A stretch of 64,000 nucleotides of DNA from an uncultured Bacteroidaceae bacterium (GTDB lineage: Bacteria; Bacteroidota; Bacteroidia; Bacteroidales; Bacteroidaceae). A program made the position numbers and the translations under genes. A model generated the notes under the pieces. It was not told the DNA's origin. It made no database searches and worked only from the letters and a program-made list of their open reading frames with translations. Shown here in pieces: positions 18,875-61,133 of this stretch (its first letter is position 1; every line of letters starts with the position of its first letter). The stretch is taken from positions 113,499 to 177,498 of the forward strand of contig CAJOHO010000002.1 in NCBI GenBank assembly GCA_905234555.1, in the 5' to 3' direction.

Positions 18875-19057
18875 GCGTGCACGGTTAATATTTTGTGCAC
18901 GCTCTGTTGAGATTTTGAGCGTGCACGAACGGGTGGTCAGAGCACGCTCAAAATTTTGTTCAAGCACGCTCAAAATTTCGTTCAAGCACGCTTGAATGGT
19001 GGCTCATGTTAACACGAATTTCCGAAAGCATTAACATAAATTTTTGAGCTTGTTAAC
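18875..19057. repeat. 22-bp-period array, 9 units (GCGTGC/GCACGC then GTTAAC boxes); family 1, copy A
   Basis: Boxes at 18875,18897,18919,18942,18964,18986,19008,19030,19052; near-identical copy at 57965-58243. Confidence 0.88.
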
Positions 19058-19113
19058 AGGGGGAAGGGGATAAATGATGATGAAAAACAATGATCAGAAA
19101 AATATTTTTTCAT

Positions 19114-19536
19114 CAAGGGTACACTAATTTTAAGTTATTCTGCTGTTTTTCTGAAAGATAAGCCTCAAAAGGGTACACTTAGGGTACACTAAAGGTACAC
19201 TAAAAAGGGGGTAAGGGTACACTTAGGGTACACTACTTTTGACTTATTTTCACCATTCCCTGTACTTTTTTGCTGATCTTTATACCTTTTTTCATCAAAT
19301 AATTGGTGTTTCGGAAATAGTTGAATCTTCTCGTGTAATTGACAAAACCACAACCTTCTCCCATTAGAAAAAAAGGAACAGAAAAGCAAAAAAAGTCATA
19401 AAAAAGCAAAAAAACGGTCAAAAATAGTGTACCCTAAGTGTACCCTTACCCCTGATTTGGTGTACCCTAAGTGTACCCTTTTGGGGTTTAAATCTCTGGT
19501 TGCCAACAATTTGAACAAAAATTAGTGTACCCTTGA
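19114..19536. mobile_element. MITE-like inverted-repeat element built of 11-bp GGGTACACT iterons
   Basis: 19-bp TIRs TCAAGGGTACACTAATTTT / AAAATTAGTGTACCCTTGA; internal about 70-bp arms with 11-bp-spaced iterons; no counterpart in the paralogous locus at 58.25 kb. Confidence 0.6.
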
Positions 19537-19578
19537 CAAAAATACTTTTTTCAGAGAAAAACAAAGCGAGATTCAGAG

Positions 19579-19806
19579 GACACCTAAAGTACGATTAGTT
19601 GGCAAATATGTAGTTCTTAATGTTCCCCAGTCTTTTCCCTTCGGCTCACAGCCCACCTGTCATATTCCCAATATACAAGTGCAAGGAAATCTGTTTTCCT
19701 GCACTTTTTTCATTTTTTCTCCGAATCGCTTGGCGGTTCGGATTTTTATTACTAATTTTGCAAGTGAACTCCGCCACAAGGCTCCCAGCGAGAGTGGGTG
19801 GAGTGG
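19579..19806 (+). promoter_or_regulatory. Conserved leader block copy A: terminator hairpin, TAATTTTG promoter, ACTCCGCCAC...GGGTGGAGT hairpin
   Basis: Shares several near-identical blocks with 58277-58500. Confidence 0.65.
19673..19707 (+). terminator. Strong intrinsic terminator AAGTGCAAGGAAATCTGTTTTCCTGCACTTTTTTC
   Basis: About 12-bp stem, 4-nt loop and T run. Confidence 0.7.
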
Positions 19807-19854
19807 AATTTATTGAATTAAAAGCATTCGCTATTATTTCGCGTTCAGCCAAGT

Positions 19855-20099
19855 AAGCCTAGGAAACTTTAATTGGAATAATAAGCACGAGATAATACGT
19901 GACAGGTAAGCCTTTGTCGGCTCTTGTTATATGGATATAGCGATGCACACGCAACGCGTGATGCATTCTTGTTCATATACAGGGGTTCCAAGTTATTCCT
20001 AGGCTTCACCTCTTGCTGGACGCAATAAGGTGTATCACGCTTTTTGCGTCTTGGCGTGATTGATAGTTGGGTGCTATTACTAAATAACTATCAATCGCT
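19855..20099 (+). promoter_or_regulatory. Highly structured leader upstream of the RM gene: closed domain AAGCCTAGGAA..TTCCTAGGCTT plus three further overlapping inverted repeats up to the start codon
   Basis: Perfect IRs: 11 bp (19855/about 19996), GACGCAA/TTGCGTC (20019/20044), ATCACGC/GCGTGAT (20034/20054), GATTGATAGTT/AACTATCAATC (20058/20086). Confidence 0.6.
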
Positions 20100-22589
20100 A
20101 TGGCAAATAACCCTCAATACTCCACGAATGAAGTAAAGAAAATACTCTTTCATAATTTGGAAGGAAAGAGTGAAGAGGTTAACTATAAGAAAAACTTCTG
20201 TGAAAAGTACTTTGACAAAGGGACTTGGAGCCTAGATGTGTTAAATCAGGTGGATGTTTTGCTTGTTAACAGAAAGGGCAGATATTTATTGTATATTGAA
20301 TCGAAATATAAGATATCAAATGAGGTTCAGAGAAGAAGAGCCATTGCTCAGGTTATTCTAACGAACAAAAAACAAGATGCCATATTGAGTCGTGTGGCTA
20401 TTATCTACTTAAACGAACACAATGATGACATACTAGAATTGATCGACTGCTCTGATGACTCAGTGATGTATAACAACGACATCAACTGGACTGCAGAGAA
20501 GCCAAGCAACCCAACCAAAGATGCCGTTGACAGAATTAACGATAGGGTAAAGGGCAAAATCACTCGTTTTACAAATGAGGAGATAAAAGACTTCTACGAT
20601 ACTTTCAAGAAAAGTCTGGATACACAGATAAACATTACAGAACAGAACTTCAATGTGGTTTATAATCTGTGGAAAAACGAGGTCCATTTTAAAGAGGCTA
20701 TTGAGGACGAACAGGACCGTATTAACTTATTCCTTGTTGACCTATTGAATGGTACAAAGTATAAGAAGTCAATCATTACGGATATAATAGACCATACGCT
20801 TTTCGAAACAGTGAAAGTGGGAGAAAAAGAAGAAGATACAGATGAGCCATTGATTCGAGAAGGAACAAACCTTAGTCATTATGTAATGATGAAAAATGGT
20901 GAGGTAATTGATGGCTTCAAATACTCTGGTGCTCAGCACTCTTATTATTACACGATAGCTAATGCTGAGGAGTACATTTCATTTTGGAAAAGATATAAAC
21001 GTCCGCCAGAGAAGCATGAGTTTATGAATATCTTGGAACGAAGCAGTAAACTTTATTCTGAAAAATACAGAAGGGATACTGGTGGAGAGTACACACCTAC
21101 ATGCTTTGTGGAATTACAAAACAAGATTCTTTATGAGCATTATAACATGGACGATTATATCGTCTGTGATCCTTGTGCTGGGGTGGGAAACTTGGAAAAC
21201 CAATTTGGCAAGGATTATAAACAATATTGCTACCTTTCTACATTAGAGCAGATGGATGTGGACACCTGCAAGATAAAGGGATTCGAGAATGCCATTCAAT
21301 TTGACTATCTTAAAGACGATAAACAGCCCCAATGGAAATACAAAGGGCGCCTTCTTCCTATTGAAGAAATAGCTAAGCATGAAGGTCGTAAGTTAATGAT
21401 TGTAATGAATCCACCCTATACTCGTAAAAAGGGGTTTGGATATGATTTGGCTATAGAATTCTTCATCAAGGTATTAGCATTACATCCTGATGTTATTGTA
21501 TATTATTGTAAGACGGAGTTCTTTCTTCGGGAAACCATATCGGTCTTTGTTAACTCCAATTACAAAATTGTATCTCATTTGTTTAGTAATGCGAAAGACA
21601 CATTCTTGTTATCGGAATGGTCTGTCAGTCAAGTAATATTTGACAAAGAATCTGGTGTAGAGATAACTAAAGGGCAGGTAATAGCAACGAGATATGACTA
21701 CAATGTACGAACGGGGCATCTTGACTTTCAAAAGACATATTGTTACGATAATTCTCGTCCAGATCTTATAAAGGAAATAGAAAAAGAGATAGTAAAGAAT
21801 CAAGCAAAAGGGTTGGTTTTAGGCCAATGGTGCTATCTGAATAGCTGTATGAAAATAAGTAATGGTGGAAAAGAAAAAGCTAAAAAAATCACATCTGAAA
21901 ACATCAAATGGTGCTTGGTTTCTAAAGGCTTGTGTTTCAATACACATCATAAATATTTCGAATGGAACTATTTGGTGTATAAAGGTCATGTTACTGAAAT
22001 CTCAAAAGAGTTATTATCGGATGCTATCATGTTTTCTTTATTCTATAAAGGAATTCTTTTTTCCAATAAAGGACAAGAAAATTATATTATGCCATTCACA
22101 GCAGAAGAATTAGGTTGTGCCAAGAACGACTTAAATGTACTATTGCCGGAAATGAATGATTTGTTTGGTACTCAGCCATTAGCAAAGCCTTTTGATTTTA
22201 GGGAATTTCTTAAACAATTTGAATTTTCAGCTGAAGCAAAGGCTCTTTATCAAGCGGCATTGGAAATCTTCAAATACTATCATCGAAGCGATGAATATCC
22301 TAACAAGGATTATAATGATAGTTATTATGACATCACCAATGCTATTATGGGAAAGAATGTGAGTTCATTCACTACATTAGACAAGGCAAACGACAAGAGA
22401 ATTACAAAAGTAAAAACGACTAAAGGTACAAAAGGATTTGGACGTAATACAATTGCCTCGGCAGTGGGTAGTAAAGATTTAGAAATATTCTTCAGATTCT
22501 TCGATACACGCGATGTCTTGGCAAAGAAGATAAACAAACAATTGTTAGAACAAAACTTGCTCCTTTGGGAGAGAGAAAATATTTATTAG
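20100..22589 (+). CDS. Putative nuclease-N6-adenine methyltransferase fusion (Type IIG-like restriction-modification enzyme)
   Basis: N-terminal PD-(D/E)xK-like VDVLLVNRKGRYLLYIESKYK; MTase motif I VCDPCAGVGNLE; motif IV VMNPPYTRKKG. Confidence 0.75.
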   Translation: MANNPQYSTNEVKKILFHNLEGKSEEVNYKKNFCEKYFDKGTWSLDVLNQVDVLLVNRKGRYLLYIESKYKISNEVQRRRAIAQVILTNKKQDAILSRVAIIYLNEHNDDILELIDCSDDSVMYNNDINWTAEKPSNPTKDAVDRINDRVKGKITRFTNEEIKDFYDTFKKSLDTQINITEQNFNVVYNLWKNEVHFKEAIEDEQDRINLFLVDLLNGTKYKKSIITDIIDHTLFETVKVGEKEEDTDEPLIREGTNLSHYVMMKNGEVIDGFKYSGAQHSYYYTIANAEEYISFWKRYKRPPEKHEFMNILERSSKLYSEKYRRDTGGEYTPTCFVELQNKILYEHYNMDDYIVCDPCAGVGNLENQFGKDYKQYCYLSTLEQMDVDTCKIKGFENAIQFDYLKDDKQPQWKYKGRLLPIEEIAKHEGRKLMIVMNPPYTRKKGFGYDLAIEFFIKVLALHPDVIVYYCKTEFFLRETISVFVNSNYKIVSHLFSNAKDTFLLSEWSVSQVIFDKESGVEITKGQVIATRYDYNVRTGHLDFQKTYCYDNSRPDLIKEIEKEIVKNQAKGLVLGQWCYLNSCMKISNGGKEKAKKITSENIKWCLVSKGLCFNTHHKYFEWNYLVYKGHVTEISKELLSDAIMFSLFYKGILFSNKGQENYIMPFTAEELGCAKNDLNVLLPEMNDLFGTQPLAKPFDFREFLKQFEFSAEAKALYQAALEIFKYYHRSDEYPNKDYNDSYYDITNAIMGKNVSSFTTLDKANDKRITKVKTTKGTKGFGRNTIASAVGSKDLEIFFRFFDTRDVLAKKINKQLLEQNLLLWERENIY

Positions 22590-22638
22590 GAACTCAAAAA
22601 CTACAAGATATAGCAAAAGAACAATTTGGAAGGTCGAA

Positions 22639-22725
22639 AACACCCATACCGAACGAACACAATCATGGCTCAGGGAACGAATCCTTGAGCCATTTTGATA
22701 AGATCTCATTAATCGTGTGGGTGTT
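22639..22725 (+). terminator. Nested hairpin after the RM gene (AACACCCAtAC..GTgTGGGTGTT around ATGGCTCA..TGAGCCAT)
   Basis: Two nested inverted repeats immediately downstream of the stop. Confidence 0.5.
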
Positions 22726-22765
22726 TATTACTTGGGTATTACAAGTTCTTCAACTCGCTGAAACC

Positions 22766-22906
22766 TTACATGTTTTTCGCCATCTCGAAGTTGCGCTTCA
22801 TATAATTGGCAGCGTCTTCGGAGTTCATTGGCGATTGCCGCCATACGGCTATTTTCCGCATTTTGCGTTCTGTCGTTTCCTTGTGAAACTGATTGAGAAA
22901 GGTCAT
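22766..22906 (-). CDS. Candidate 46-aa small protein
   Basis: MTFLNQFHKETTERKMRKIAVWRQSPMNSEDAANYMKRNFEMAKNM, preceded by TTAACTTTGC promoter-like sequence; overlaps an alternative 61-aa frame (22728..22913). Confidence 0.35.
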   Translation of the reverse strand: MTFLNQFHKETTERKMRKIAVWRQSPMNSEDAANYMKRNFEMAKNM

Positions 22907-23101
22907 AGTCCATTCCTTTTTATTTAAGACTGCTGCAAAGTTAAGAAAAAACGTTGAATCTGCTAAAGAAATGATAAAAAAAACATGATTTGTTCTTCTT
23001 TAGCCAGAGAGAAGAAGAATTATTTTCGTATAGCTTATCATGAGGTGGACACAAATTTAGCAGACCTTAAAAACCATTCTTCTCGATAAAAAGCGAAATT
23101 A

Positions 23102-23235
23102 GTTAAGTGATTTGTGTTTTTCGCTTAACAAATTTTGCGGAATTTGTTAAGTCTGAATCCGAAAATACTTAACAAAAATGAAATAATTTGTTAAGTGATT
23201 CCACTTAATTTGTTAAGTGTTTCCGAATTTTGTTG
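23102..23235. repeat. 22-bp-period array, 6 units (GTTAAG/CTTAAC boxes); family 2, copy A
   Basis: Boxes at 23102,23124,23146,23168,23190,23212; near-identical copy at 60939-61070. Confidence 0.88.
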
Positions 23236-23385
23236 AAAATGGATGTCAATAGACTGGTTCCTACCCTCAACTCCTGATGCATGATTTCAGGATGATTTGA
23301 TTTCTCACGTGATTCTTCTACAGAGTTTTTTGGGGTGTGATTCTGTTTTTTCTCTAAAAAAGTTTGTGGTTTCAAAAAAAAGCTG

Positions 23386-23410: not shown

Positions 23411-23484
23411 GGTGCGTTAGTTCAGTAGGTTAGAATACATGCCTGTCACGCATGGGGTCACGAGTTCGAGTCTCGTACGCACCG
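23411..23484 (+). tRNA. tRNA-Asp(GTC)
   Basis: Cloverleaf GGTGCGT..CTGTCAC..GTTCGAGTC..ACGCACC. Confidence 0.93.
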
Positions 23485-56741: not shown

Positions 56742-56816
56742 GGGCGTTTAGCTCAGCTGGTTCAGAGCATCTGCCTTACAAGCAGAGGGTCGGCGGTTCG
56801 AATCCGTCAACGCCCA
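56742..56816 (+). tRNA. tRNA-Val(TAC)
   Basis: Cloverleaf; anticodon TAC. Confidence 0.93.
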
Positions 56817-56859
56817 CGCAAGAGTGATGAAAATCACGATTTGCACTTCATTTGTGGAC

Positions 56860-56933
56860 GGCTCGTTAGCTCAACTGAATAGAGCATCTGACTACGGATC
56901 AGAAGGTTATAGGTTTGAATCCTATACGAGTCA
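56860..56933 (+). tRNA. tRNA-Arg(ACG)
   Basis: Cloverleaf; anticodon ACG. Confidence 0.88.
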
Positions 56934-56946
56934 CAAGCAAGGTACA

Positions 56947-57029
56947 GGGCATATTCCAGAGTGGCCAAATGGGGCAGACTGTAAATCTGCTGGCTTTCGC
57001 CTTCGGTGGTTCGAATCCATCTGTGCCCA
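56947..57029 (+). tRNA. tRNA-Tyr(GTA)
   Basis: Long variable arm; anticodon GTA. Confidence 0.92.
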
Positions 57030-57079
57030 CGACTTGAAGAAGCGTCTTCGGAAGGTCATAGTAGAACTTTGAATATTCT

Positions 57080-57152
57080 GCGGAAGTAGCTCAGTTGATA
57101 GAGCACTAGCCTTCCAAGCTGGGGGTCGCGGGTTTGAGCCCCGTCTTCCGCT
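57080..57152 (+). tRNA. tRNA-Gly(TCC)
   Basis: Cloverleaf; anticodon TCC. Confidence 0.93.
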
Positions 57153-57167
57153 CAAGTTCAAAAGTCC

Positions 57168-57241
57168 GCCTCTTTAGCTCAGTTGGCCAGAGCACGTGAT
57201 TTGTAATCTCGGGGTCGTTGGTTCGAATCCGACAAGAGGCT
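57168..57241 (+). tRNA. tRNA-Thr(TGT)
   Basis: Cloverleaf; anticodon TGT. Confidence 0.93.
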
Positions 57242-57340
57242 CAAGGTTTTTCTGAGTTGGGAGGATATCCAATCCGACAAAGCCTAAGAGCTTTGGAGAA
57301 GATATCGTCCGACAAGGTCAAAACATAACCCTTTGCATAA

Positions 57341-57422
57341 GGAGAGGTGGCGGAATGGTAGACGCGCTACTTTGAGGGGGTAGTGGGCTCAGCCCGTGGG
57401 AGTTCGAGTCTCCTCCTCTTCA
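57341..57422 (+). tRNA. tRNA-Leu(GAG)
   Basis: Long variable arm; anticodon GAG. Confidence 0.9.
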
Positions 57423-57439
57423 CTTAGCAAAGAAAACAT

Positions 57440-57513
57440 GCTTCAGTAGCTCAGTTGGTTAGAGCACATGACTGTTAATCATGGGGTCGTTGGTTCAAGC
57501 CCATCCTGAAGCG
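57440..57513 (+). tRNA. tRNA-Asn(GTT)
   Basis: Cloverleaf; anticodon GTT. Confidence 0.92.
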
Positions 57514-57525
57514 CAAAACAAAGAT

Positions 57526-57598
57526 GCGTCCTTAGCTCAGTTGGTAGAGCAATTGACTCTTAATCAATGGGTCCAGGGTTCGAGCCCCTGAGGGCGTA
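57526..57598 (+). tRNA. tRNA-Lys(CTT)
   Basis: Cloverleaf; anticodon CTT. Confidence 0.92.
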
Positions 57599-57653
57599 CA
57601 AAGGGATGAAGGGTACATCACCCGAGCGTGAGCACCATCATCCCTTATTTTTT

Positions 57654-57738
57654 GGAGAGATGGCAGAGTGGTCGATTGCATCGGTCTTGAAAACCGACGT
57701 ACTGAGAGGTACCGGGGGTTCGAATCCCTCTCTCTCCG
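57654..57738 (+). tRNA. tRNA-Ser(TGA)
   Basis: Long variable arm; anticodon TGA. Confidence 0.93.
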
Positions 57739-57911
57739 CAAACGCAAAGGCTGGTTGAAGAAATTCAACCAGTTTTTTTGTAGGTAGGGAAGGAAAGTTC
57801 ACTTTTATTCCACTAACCTACAAAAAAGACTGAGGCACTTGTGCCAGCCTTTGCGTTTAGACGGTCTCCGCGGGAGCGTCTGGGATGCGCGAAGCGAATC
57901 CCTCTCTCCGC
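57721..57911. mobile_element. Possible miniature insertion between duplicated tRNA-Ser 3' ends
   Basis: CGAATCCCTCTCTCTCCGC (57721-57739) repeated as CGAATCCCTCTCTCCGC (57895-57911), flanking about 155 bp of nested inverted repeats. Confidence 0.45.
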
Positions 57912-57964: not shown

Positions 57965-58243
57965 GTTAACTCTGGCGAAAAATTCGTGCGTGCATGGTTG
58001 AGTTTTTACTCTTCCTCTGTCACTCAGCATAGCTCAAACAAGTTTTGCTCTGCCTTCGCTGCTCCATCGGTTTACATTTTGAGCACGCTCTGTTGAAATT
58101 TTGAGCGTGCACGAGTGGGTGGTCAGAGCACGCTTGAAATTTTGTTCAAGCACGCTCAAAATTTCGTTCAAGCACGCTTGAATTGCGCTGCGTGTTAACA
58201 CGAATTTCCGAAAGCATTAACATAAAATCTTGAGCTTGTTAAC
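57965..58243. repeat. 22-bp-period array family 1, copy B, interrupted by a GGCATAGCTCAAAC-type dispersed repeat
   Basis: Boxes at 57965,57988, then 58083,58105,58128,58150,58172,58194,58216,58238. Confidence 0.88.
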
Positions 58244-58276
58244 AGGGGGGTAGATAGTAAAGAAAGATTCTGATGA

Positions 58277-58500
58277 CACCTAAAGTACGATTAGTAGGCA
58301 AATATGTTGGTCAGAATGTTCATCTCTCCCCATCCGGCTCACAGCCCACCTGTCATATCCCCAATATACAAGTGCAAGGAAATCTGTTTCCTTTCTCTTT
58401 TTTCATTTTTTTCTCAACAATATTTCCTTGATTCAGTTTTTATTGGTAACTTTGCAGGTGAACTCCGCCACAAAGCTCTTTCGAGTGTTGGTGGAGTGGG
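58277..58500 (+). promoter_or_regulatory. Conserved leader block copy B (TAACTTTG promoter; ACTCCGCCAC..GGTGGAGT hairpin)
   Basis: Blocks near-identical to 19579-19806. Confidence 0.65.
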
Positions 58501-58518
58501 ACATAACATCGTCGAATA

Positions 58519-59241
58519 ATGAAAGTAAAAGTCATGAAAACAAGTATGAAGGCATTATACTTATTATCTATGCTTTTTCTTGTTGCTTGCAATCCGAGGT
58601 TGCAACAGCAGGAGAAGTCCCTAAGTGAGCAACGTGCTGAGACGGATACAGTTTTGGCTTTTCAGGGCATCAGAATATCTGAGCCTTTGGATTCTGCTCG
58701 CTATTATGAACTTGTAAAAGACCTTCCGGTTAAGCTATATACTGAAAGTAAGGATGAATTTACTTTTGATTTAGTCCAAATAAACGATGGAACTGCATAT
58801 CCAGGCGATATAGTCCACCGTCTCTCTTTGCAAGGAAATGTTGATAAGTCATACAATTTCCTTCACCTCATTGGATTGTATGTTGATAATTATGGGGATT
58901 TTTCGTACTACCAGCGTCTTGACCAAGAGGGCGAAGCTATGGGAACTTTCCCTTTAGGAGAAAAGAGTGAACTTAGTGGGAAACCTTGGACATATCAAGA
59001 TGCAATGAATGATTTTATGGAACATTGGAATTCCACGCTTTATCAGTTTGTTTTTGTTTGGGAATGGAAAAACCAATCCGTCATTCTTTTATATAATCCT
59101 CATGAACTCTCATTAAATAGTTCGGTAATTTATCTTGATGATGGTTTTACAACACGTCAGGCCGAAGAAAAAAGAAAGCAGAGGTTGAAAGAAGCAGAGG
59201 AACGCCAAATAGAAGAGGCGATAAAACGTCAACAGATATAA
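58519..59241 (+). CDS. Lipoprotein, hypothetical
   Basis: ORF with LLSMLFLVACN lipobox. Confidence 0.7.
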   Translation: MKVKVMKTSMKALYLLSMLFLVACNPRLQQQEKSLSEQRAETDTVLAFQGIRISEPLDSARYYELVKDLPVKLYTESKDEFTFDLVQINDGTAYPGDIVHRLSLQGNVDKSYNFLHLIGLYVDNYGDFSYYQRLDQEGEAMGTFPLGEKSELSGKPWTYQDAMNDFMEHWNSTLYQFVFVWEWKNQSVILLYNPHELSLNSSVIYLDDGFTTRQAEEKRKQRLKEAEERQIEEAIKRQQI

Positions 59242-59291
59242 TTGTTTTTAAGGGTCTTCATTATCTCACAATAGAAAAAACAATAAAAATA

Positions 59292-60011
59292 ATGAGCCGT
59301 AAAACTTATTTGATAGTATCTCTTGTTCTTGTTGCATTGATAGGATGTGGCAAAGATGAAGAAGAGGAGATTATAGAAGAAGAAACTAATGAATATATCA
59401 ATTCAGAAGCTGAATCAAATAGATATAGTCGTAGCGAAAGTGCAGAACAGAATCTTCTGATTAATGGTGGATTAGAGGAATGGAACTTTTTCCTACCAGG
59501 CAGTCCAAGTGATTGGTCTATACCTCATAATGAATATGTTCAACGCAATAAATCAATTGTTTATGAAGGAAATTTCTCTGCAAAGATGCAGTCAGAACAA
59601 ACAGGTGAAACTGCAAGAATAGATCAAAGAATATCAGTTGTCCCTAACCATAAATTAAGGATTCGTTTCCATTATTATGTAGAACAATGGAAATCCAAAG
59701 GAGCAAGAACTTATTGCTATTTCAGAACAGCGGCTGCAGAAGCTTACAACATCTCAACAGATGAATTGGAAGACTTTTATGGCAAAGATACTTATTACAT
59801 CATTCGTGGGGGAGGATATGGGTTAACATATTTCCCTCACGCGTTGAATGTTTGGCAGACTTTTGATGAAACAATTGAAGTCCCCCCAACAGCCAATTAT
59901 TTTGTTTTTGGGATTAATAGCTATCACGGAACAACCATCTACGTTGATGACTGCTGGGTTATTGACGTAACAGACACAAGTACAACAGGTATAACTCCTG
60001 TTTGGATTTAA
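59292..60011 (+). CDS. Lipoprotein with possible carbohydrate-binding-like beta-sandwich
   Basis: LVLVALIGCG lipobox; NLLINGGLEEWNF..SVVPNHKLRIRFHYYVEQW resembles CBM-like 'NGDFE' domains. Confidence 0.65.
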   Translation: MSRKTYLIVSLVLVALIGCGKDEEEEIIEEETNEYINSEAESNRYSRSESAEQNLLINGGLEEWNFFLPGSPSDWSIPHNEYVQRNKSIVYEGNFSAKMQSEQTGETARIDQRISVVPNHKLRIRFHYYVEQWKSKGARTYCYFRTAAAEAYNISTDELEDFYGKDTYYIIRGGGYGLTYFPHALNVWQTFDETIEVPPTANYFVFGINSYHGTTIYVDDCWVIDVTDTSTTGITPVWI

Positions 60012-60104: not shown

Positions 60105-60665
60105 TTAATCTCCTCCGAAATCCACTTTGGCAGCGACGGCAAAGCCGATTTCGTGGTTGGAGTAGTTGAGGGAGAGTTCCAGGAACTTGGTTGTGTAGGC
60201 TAAACGTACACCGTAAACGAAGTCGTGCCCGCGATGACCATGTGGTGCTTCAAACTCCTCGTTGCCGATCTTGATGCTCACGTCGCAACGGAGAAGTCCC
60301 ACGTAGGGCGTAAGCGAAATGTTGTTGCCCCATTTTCCATAGCGGAACGAAGGCCCCGCCTTCACCAAACATGTTGCAACATTTTCTTTGTAACCTTGCC
60401 CTCCTTTGTATGTGTCACGAGAAAAATAGGCTAAGCCTATGTATAACGACATGATTTGGGCATTAAGTGCCAGCAGATGAACTGGCATGATGTCGCAATA
60501 CACATCACCTCTGAGTGGGGTGTGGAGATAGTCATAACCAAGTCCCAGCGAACCAGAGGTGTTCCACCCTAACTTTACCACGTTGTCTGGGTCGTCGTAC
60601 ATTTCCTGCGCCCTCATGTTAGCTGTGGCTGATAGCAACAATAAAAGAAAAATAGACCTTTTCAT
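60105..60665 (-). CDS. Small outer membrane beta-barrel-like secreted protein
   Basis: Start MKRSIFLLLLLSATANMRAQ; alternating beta pattern. Confidence 0.6.
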   Translation of the reverse strand: MKRSIFLLLLLSATANMRAQEMYDDPDNVVKLGWNTSGSLGLGYDYLHTPLRGDVYCDIMPVHLLALNAQIMSLYIGLAYFSRDTYKGGQGYKENVATCLVKAGPSFRYGKWGNNISLTPYVGLLRCDVSIKIGNEEFEAPHGHRGHDFVYGVRLAYTTKFLELSLNYSNHEIGFAVAAKVDFGGD

Positions 60666-60938
60666 AAGCTTTATGTTTAGGTTTTGCTGCAAAGTTCGGA
60701 TAAAAATATGACATTTCCAAACTATATTCATTCGAATTTTATGTCTTCGGAAATATTTAGGGAAAACCAAACAAAGCCGTATGAAAAGCCGTACAGAGAA
60801 TAGGAGAAATCCGCACCATCTTTTCTAATCATTAGGGAAAGGATTATTTATATACTCAATAATTCTCATAGACTCTGATTCGTTCGCTGATGATGCGGGG
60901 ACTTCAGAAACGGCTCTTTTCGATAAAAAACGAAATTA

Positions 60939-61070
60939 GTTAAGTGATTTGTGTTTTTCGCTTAATAAATTTTGCGGAATTTGTTAAGTCCGATTCCGAA
61001 AATACTTAACAAAAATGAAATAATTTGTTAAGTGATTCCACTACATTTGTTAAGTGTTTACGGATTTTGT
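60939..61070. repeat. 22-bp-period array family 2, copy B (GTTAAG/CTTAAY)
   Basis: Boxes at 60939,60961,60983,61005,61027,61049; about 90% identical to 23102-23235 by eye. Confidence 0.88.
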
Positions 61071-61133
61071 TGAAATTGGATGTCAAGGAGCAGTTGTGCC
61101 ATCATTGCTGATGTCTGATGGGAGAAGGGTGGT

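Follow-up and report, generated by a model that had tools for sequence, protein, structure and literature searches.

A structured leader RNA of attenuator-like layout ahead of a predicted DNA methyltransferase gene and of diverse accessory operons in Bacteroidales

Background

How newly acquired restriction-modification operons are restrained is an old question, and the answers so far have mostly been control proteins. Among described intergenic elements, the BrickBuilt MITE of Porphyromonas gingivalis is dispersed between genes in about 19 copies, with a core of 23-nt tandem repeats and with leader and tail parts (PMC4596501). The repeat arrays described below resemble it in being dispersed intergenic copies with a 22-23-nt repeat core; they differ in their 22-bp phase, in the several unrelated words found within one genome, and in having words that are inverted or palindromic. 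The BrickBuilt leader is a part of the MITE (PMC4596501), whereas the leader that concerns us here is a separate promoter plus RNA.

We analyzed two loci, A and B, in a window (the whole stretch of DNA under study, 64,000 nucleotides from an uncultured Bacteroidaceae bacterium). Our main reading, to which we assign a probability of roughly 0.7, is that locus A is a methyltransferase gene of restriction-modification type, preceded by a promoter of its own and by a structured leader RNA about 340 nt long, that this RNA belongs to an order-wide class, and that it would control its operon in cis in the manner of an attenuator or riboswitch.

Results

Layout of the two loci

A preliminary description had proposed that both loci follow the order array 1, leader block, cargo, array 2, and this order is indeed present at A and at B (features are on the plus strand unless stated otherwise). 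At locus A, array 1 (18875-19064) begins 16 nt past the stop codon of a glucosaminidase gene and consists of GCGTGC/GCACGC words in 22-bp phase, with three GTTAAC words as its tail. The leader block (19575-19806) contains shared upstream DNA with a Bacteroidota-type promoter (19575-19761; TAATTTTGC at 19753-19761); partial copies of this upstream DNA are found elsewhere in the source genome. The structured leader RNA (19761-20099; minimum free energy [MFE] -125 kcal/mol, z -7.3) is followed by a gene for an 829-aa protein of DNA adenine methyltransferase fold (20100-22589; NPPY motif), a type IIG-like restriction-modification candidate, and then by array 2 (23063-23250; GTTAAG/CTTAAC words, 22-bp phase).

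At locus B, array 1 (57981-58249) is broken by a foreign insert of about 70 nt from another repeat. The leader block (58271-58500) has the shared upstream DNA and promoter (58271-58455; TAACTTTGC at 58447-58455) and hairpin 1 of the structured RNA (58455-58500), the remainder of the RNA being missing; this hairpin matches R1, a model of the first two hairpins, at E 1.2e-7, with B itself a member of the R1 training set. The cargo comprises two open reading frames with lipoprotein-like N termini (240 and 239 aa; 58519-60011, with starts at 58519 and 59292; no Pfam family) and a further minus-strand reading frame at 60105, and a GTTAAG array 2 (60900-61088) follows. DNA identity between the two loci is 91% for array 1, 80-81% for the leader and 91-94% for array 2. 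Locus B is best explained as a decayed copy that has retained the promoter and hairpin 1. Both loci lie near tRNA genes, as had been noted (tRNA-Asp at 23411 near A, and a tRNA cluster at 56742-57739 near B).

One detail of locus A had been overlooked. Between array 1 and the leader lies a MITE-like inverted-repeat element of 465 nt (19091-19555; 19082-19564 with its flanking direct repeats; no strand assigned), which carries GGGTACACT words and 38-nt terminal inverted repeats and is flanked at either end by a perfect 9-bp target repeat, GAAAAACAA. The element is missing from B, where array 1 and the leader are only 21 nt apart. Relatives of it, carrying GTTAGG or GTACCC words, adjoin GCACGC arrays at four other places in the source genome (C59, C1-end, C20 and C13).

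The predicted methyltransferase gene and the cargo of the window

The 829-aa protein of locus A has no sequence match in Pfam or PDB. A Foldseek search with a low-confidence structural model returned CamA (E 2e-6), and TaqI and a type I M subunit (both 1e-5), and the NPPY motif is invariant in three sequences. On this fold, taken from a low-confidence model, and this motif, the gene at 20100-22589 is predicted to be a DNA adenine methyltransferase. Close homologues occur only in G315 (62%) and G305 (51%), and the leader RNA is absent at both. PADLOC returned nothing for the cargo of A and B, and NCBIfam gave only chance-level matches below cut-off.

Fold and covariation of the leader RNA

In the leader of locus A we distinguish hairpin 1 (19768-19804), helix P1 (19841-19849/20015-20023; GCGTTCAGC/GCTGGACGC), helix P2 (19857-19865/19996-20004; GCCTAGGAA/TTCCTAGGC), an alternative helix that competes with P1 (20019-20025/20044-20050; GACGCAA/TTGCGTC) and a hairpin preceding the start codon (20058-20096). 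Across 62 sequences the nested helices P1, P2 and P4 covary strongly. Paired cells make up 88%, compared with 72% after shuffling (a percentage that leans towards structure, because the nested helices guided the alignment), and double-changed cells number 300, compared with 78. P2 is paired in all 62 sequences, with double changes at all six of its pairs, and the covariation signal is destroyed when a helix partner is slid. Compensatory changes thus keep the helices, as expected of a structured RNA under selection.

P1 measures 8.6 bp between the strands of one sequence and 4.4 bp with the strands of other sequences. The two alternative pairings, which were left unfitted in the alignment, behave in the same direction: the P1'/P1'' helix reaches a length of 8.2 with its own strands and 6.5 with others (permutation maximum 7.1), and P6, in which an internal GGGCA-like loop pairs downstream, reaches 6.3 and 5.6 (maximum 6.1). 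P1 and the downstream helix are mutually exclusive and enclose a hairpin with a U run (the U run as read from the alignment), so that at the level of sequence the leader has two exclusive helices, one of them round a terminator-like hairpin. The promoter -7 box lies immediately 5' of the RNA at nearly all of the family loci listed, and the start codon falls at +264 to +339 at most of them. Attenuators and riboswitches are laid out in this way, and our best guess for the function is cis-regulation by attenuation. A coding reading of the leader was also tried and rejected: an open reading frame with an in-frame indel is common to A and B, A has no ATG, and a copy on C9 contains a stop.

Spread of the leader across the order

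Two places in another genus match the 3' end of the leader block (its -7 box and first hairpin) at 72-74% identity (E 7e-10), and one of them precedes a D12 methyltransferase. A DNA pattern search found four full leaders in rumen-type Bacteroidales MAGs (three in RGIG6563 and one in RUG13277), preceding four operons: one with a 1550-aa protein, one with a methyltransferase pair, one TPR/MazG-like, and another. With R1, which was built with A included, we found matches in 28 of 400 genomes of the family. R2, a model of the RNA body built from 33 sequences, matches in 142 of 394 genomes of the order, belonging to 87 of 207 genera, often with several copies each. The leader of A lies at the edge of the class (R2 score 21.8 bits, E 0.0018) and has an enlarged inner domain; R2 splits this leader when it is run unfiltered on a short stretch. 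Its membership rests on DNA identity, on a second A-like member (L276) and on the same helices.

The covariance models of Rfam 15 gave no match to the A leader at E up to 5, and no leader match at the gathering score in 16 family loci; one locus (L068) has a single chance-level match to an Rfam sRNA, away from the leader. A blastn search of phage and plasmid collections with the L243 leader found nothing, and one viral pattern scan for the leader was empty. Our literature search, which left most subscription papers outside its reach so that an earlier description is possible, found no account of the leader. As far as tested, then, the class is undescribed.

Cargo behind the leader

Within the family, about 26 of the 38 first genes behind the leader are methyltransferases (Eco57I-type, 7; EcoRI-type, 6; MmeI-type, 5; HsdM, 4; N6/N4, 2; D12, 1; and the gene of the window), as assigned by Pfam on representatives and by BLAST cluster for the remainder. 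The other cargo in the family includes SNF2/PLD helicases, DUF6056 with a glycosyltransferase, MBOAT, DprA, TPR and BspA-type genes, and in the wider order we found methyltransferases, DarT, BspA, Fib_succ_major, shufflon-type and PD40 proteins. Because cargo outside the family is so varied (surface proteins, a channel, TPR), the case for a role specific to defense is weaker. Some leaders (L245, L260, L267 and L276) are followed by no clear gene.

Leaders that are 89-92% alike head unrelated genes (L239, L246 and L262). The swapped cargo that the preliminary description had looked for therefore exists, but behind the RNA leader and across species. Its notion of one non-coding frame round different cargo likewise applies to the leader, which is a structured RNA found nearly identical before unrelated operons across genera.

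The source genome has a third leader RNA, on C20, where the order is array, leader, EcoRI-type methyltransferase and GmrSD/HNH endonuclease. At seven loci elsewhere (L202, L204, L206, L280, L285, L289 and L295) the gene upstream of the leader is often of AlbA_2, DUF1016 or Bro-N type, as judged by N-terminal resemblance alone; such genes possibly belong to the same islands as the leaders.

Arrays as dispersed repeats

The window contains six phased chains of 6-mers at period 22 but lacks them at periods 15-20 and 24-33, and none occur in five order-3 Markov shuffles, indicating that the arrays are not due to chance. Two more adjoining arrays, with TCTTAG and AAGTAC words, lie at 1128-1199 and 1260-1355, and a chain of three arrays at L158 (2347-2745) resembles this pair. 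The source genome (a draft of 2.49 Mb in 67 contigs) holds about 12 strong copies of array 1 and seven of array 2. An arbitrary 457 kb sample of it contains 13 arrays at period 22, compared with 0-2 at periods outside 21-23, and the words in that sample vary widely (TCTTAG, AAGTAC, GCGTGC, GTTAAG and others). Several copies of array 1 begin within 16 nt of a stop codon; their 3' ends differ, and no target repeat was identified around them.

We sought arrays 1 and 2 in 60 relatives, 12 of them in the same genus, and found neither; other species of the genus have 22-bp arrays built of yet other words. One relative (G011) has a different 22-bp array after the orthologous glucosaminidase gene, with no cargo, and its own relative G004 lacks an array there. 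Given the scatter of the copies, the variety of words and the contrast between G011 and G004, arrays 1 and 2 belong to a dispersed class of 22-bp-phased intergenic repeats and are specific to their species. Most arrays fold well as RNA hairpins; those with TCTTAG and GCACAG words do not (z -0.1 and +2.0), which rules out RNA hairpins as a general account and leaves the 22-bp phasing as the common trait. In a 22-bp array of another genome (G010; L134, 8260-8380), the palindromes of successive units co-vary, from TGGAAC/GTTCCA to TGGTAC/GTACCA.

Arrays in relation to the leader

Arrays 1 and 2 mostly occur apart. Seven of the nine array 1 copies with readable downstream DNA have no array 2 nearby, five of the seven array 2 copies have no array 1, and of all copies in the genome only those of A and B bring the two within 5 kb of each other. 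We found no third bracket in which both borders recur round different cargo, and the two-sided bracket of the preliminary description, with arrays as recognition sites, is not supported. Relatives provide no clean empty site at A or B, because their downstream gene order varies.

The link of array 1 with the leader, by contrast, is supported in part. At A, at B and at the weaker leader copies of C59, C13 and C1, an array of GCACGC type is found no more than 1 kb upstream of the leader, and on C20 one stands just upstream of it; the pairing is thus found at four loci besides A and B. At five of these six loci (all but B) the array has an inverted-repeat element next to it. In other genomes, 6 of 40 leader loci have a 22-bp array, with other words, in the roughly 330 nt preceding the RNA, and none of 601 other tiles has one; this link is suggestive only, since the control tiles are mostly coding. 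The best explanation for array 2 is an independent repeat that stands downstream at both loci by chance or through local duplication; array 1 is best explained as often lying just upstream of leaders in the source genome, yet without being a cassette border.

Discussion

Two functions for the arrays have to be weighed. We consider quite improbable the first suggestion, in which cargo is exchanged between arrays 1 and 2 and the arrays provide the homology or recognition sites. The array 1 copies of A and B are indeed each other's closest, as sister copies (tree support 98/99), and the array 2 copy closest to that of A is that of B (88%), which may reflect joint copying of part of the unit; both loci sit at gene-order breakpoints in the genus, beside their tRNA genes, and C20 likewise ends at tRNA-Leu. 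However, the array 2 pairing forms no supported clade, C20 repeats the array-leader-methylase order of A with no array 2 downstream, and the solitary habit of most copies and their absence from the relatives searched argue against exchange between them. It is also unlikely that the 22-bp arrays are operators for a DNA-binding protein that controls the leader promoters: the two-turn phasing, the mostly palindromic words and the arrays upstream of all three leaders of the source genome (and of some leaders elsewhere) would suit this role, but such arrays occur in about 8% of that genome's intergenic regions 120 nt or longer, arrays also lie between convergent genes, the words are species-dependent, and the comparison tiles were mostly coding.

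For the leader itself, one alternative is a role in protein binding or processive antitermination, comparable to that of put or EAR RNAs, by which polymerase could read through long acquired operons. A single leader before many unrelated and often long operons would fit this, as would the hairpins with U runs that lie between promoter and gene in many copies; we nonetheless rate it as rather doubtful, because P1'/P1'', the alternative helix that forms with a sequence's own strands, is better suited to a local switch and no partner protein was identified. Very improbable, in our judgment, is an element that acts as DNA, its folded single strand serving cargo recombination as at integron attC sites. 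Cargo is swapped behind near-identical leaders, and several copies lie near contig ends, but the element is positioned exactly between the promoter -7 box and the gene start, its conserved helices include G-U pairs, and no integrase or transposase gene was recognized beside it in the loci read.

The attenuator or riboswitch-like reading, which we prefer, would work as follows. The P1' strand can pair either with P1 or with the downstream P1'' round the hairpin and U run, and the leader would thereby act in cis to set operon output to some signal. The class heads differing accessory operons, mostly for DNA modification and restriction and also for helicases, glycan modification and surface proteins, and leader and cargo would recombine, so that a single regulatory head could serve many operons. 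That the RNA senses a common signal of phage attack or envelope change across the order, and so sets unrelated restriction-modification, helicase and surface operons that acquire it by recombination, as a swappable regulatory head for phage defense, is a tentative extension that we regard as less likely than not. If our reading is true, a large conserved leader RNA on many unrelated methylase and surface operons would constitute a general RNA answer in the Bacteroidales to the restraint of acquired operons; the RNA is present in over a third of the order genomes sampled, yet missing from Rfam 15.

Compared with known systems, DUF805b RNA (RF02914) is likewise a cis-regulatory RNA family; it differs in being a 35-nt motif, to which the main leader has no match and which we found at one locus only. 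The copy there (L280, 1446-1481 on the minus strand; E 2.7e-7) lies directly behind a structured leader. Integron cassettes and defense hotspots share with these loci the varied accessory genes behind a common non-coding head near tRNA genes; they differ in that no attC-like site was seen at the loci read, no integrase was recognized among the genes near A, B and C20, and the loci have no common right border. Riboswitches and attenuators are a further likeness. Their cargo is unlike that of the leader, which is not confined to one metabolic pathway and heads genes for DNA modification, restriction and the cell surface, but the promoter-proximal 5' leader, the nested conserved helices, the competing helix at a hairpin with a U run, and the use of one class before many operons are features that the two have in common.
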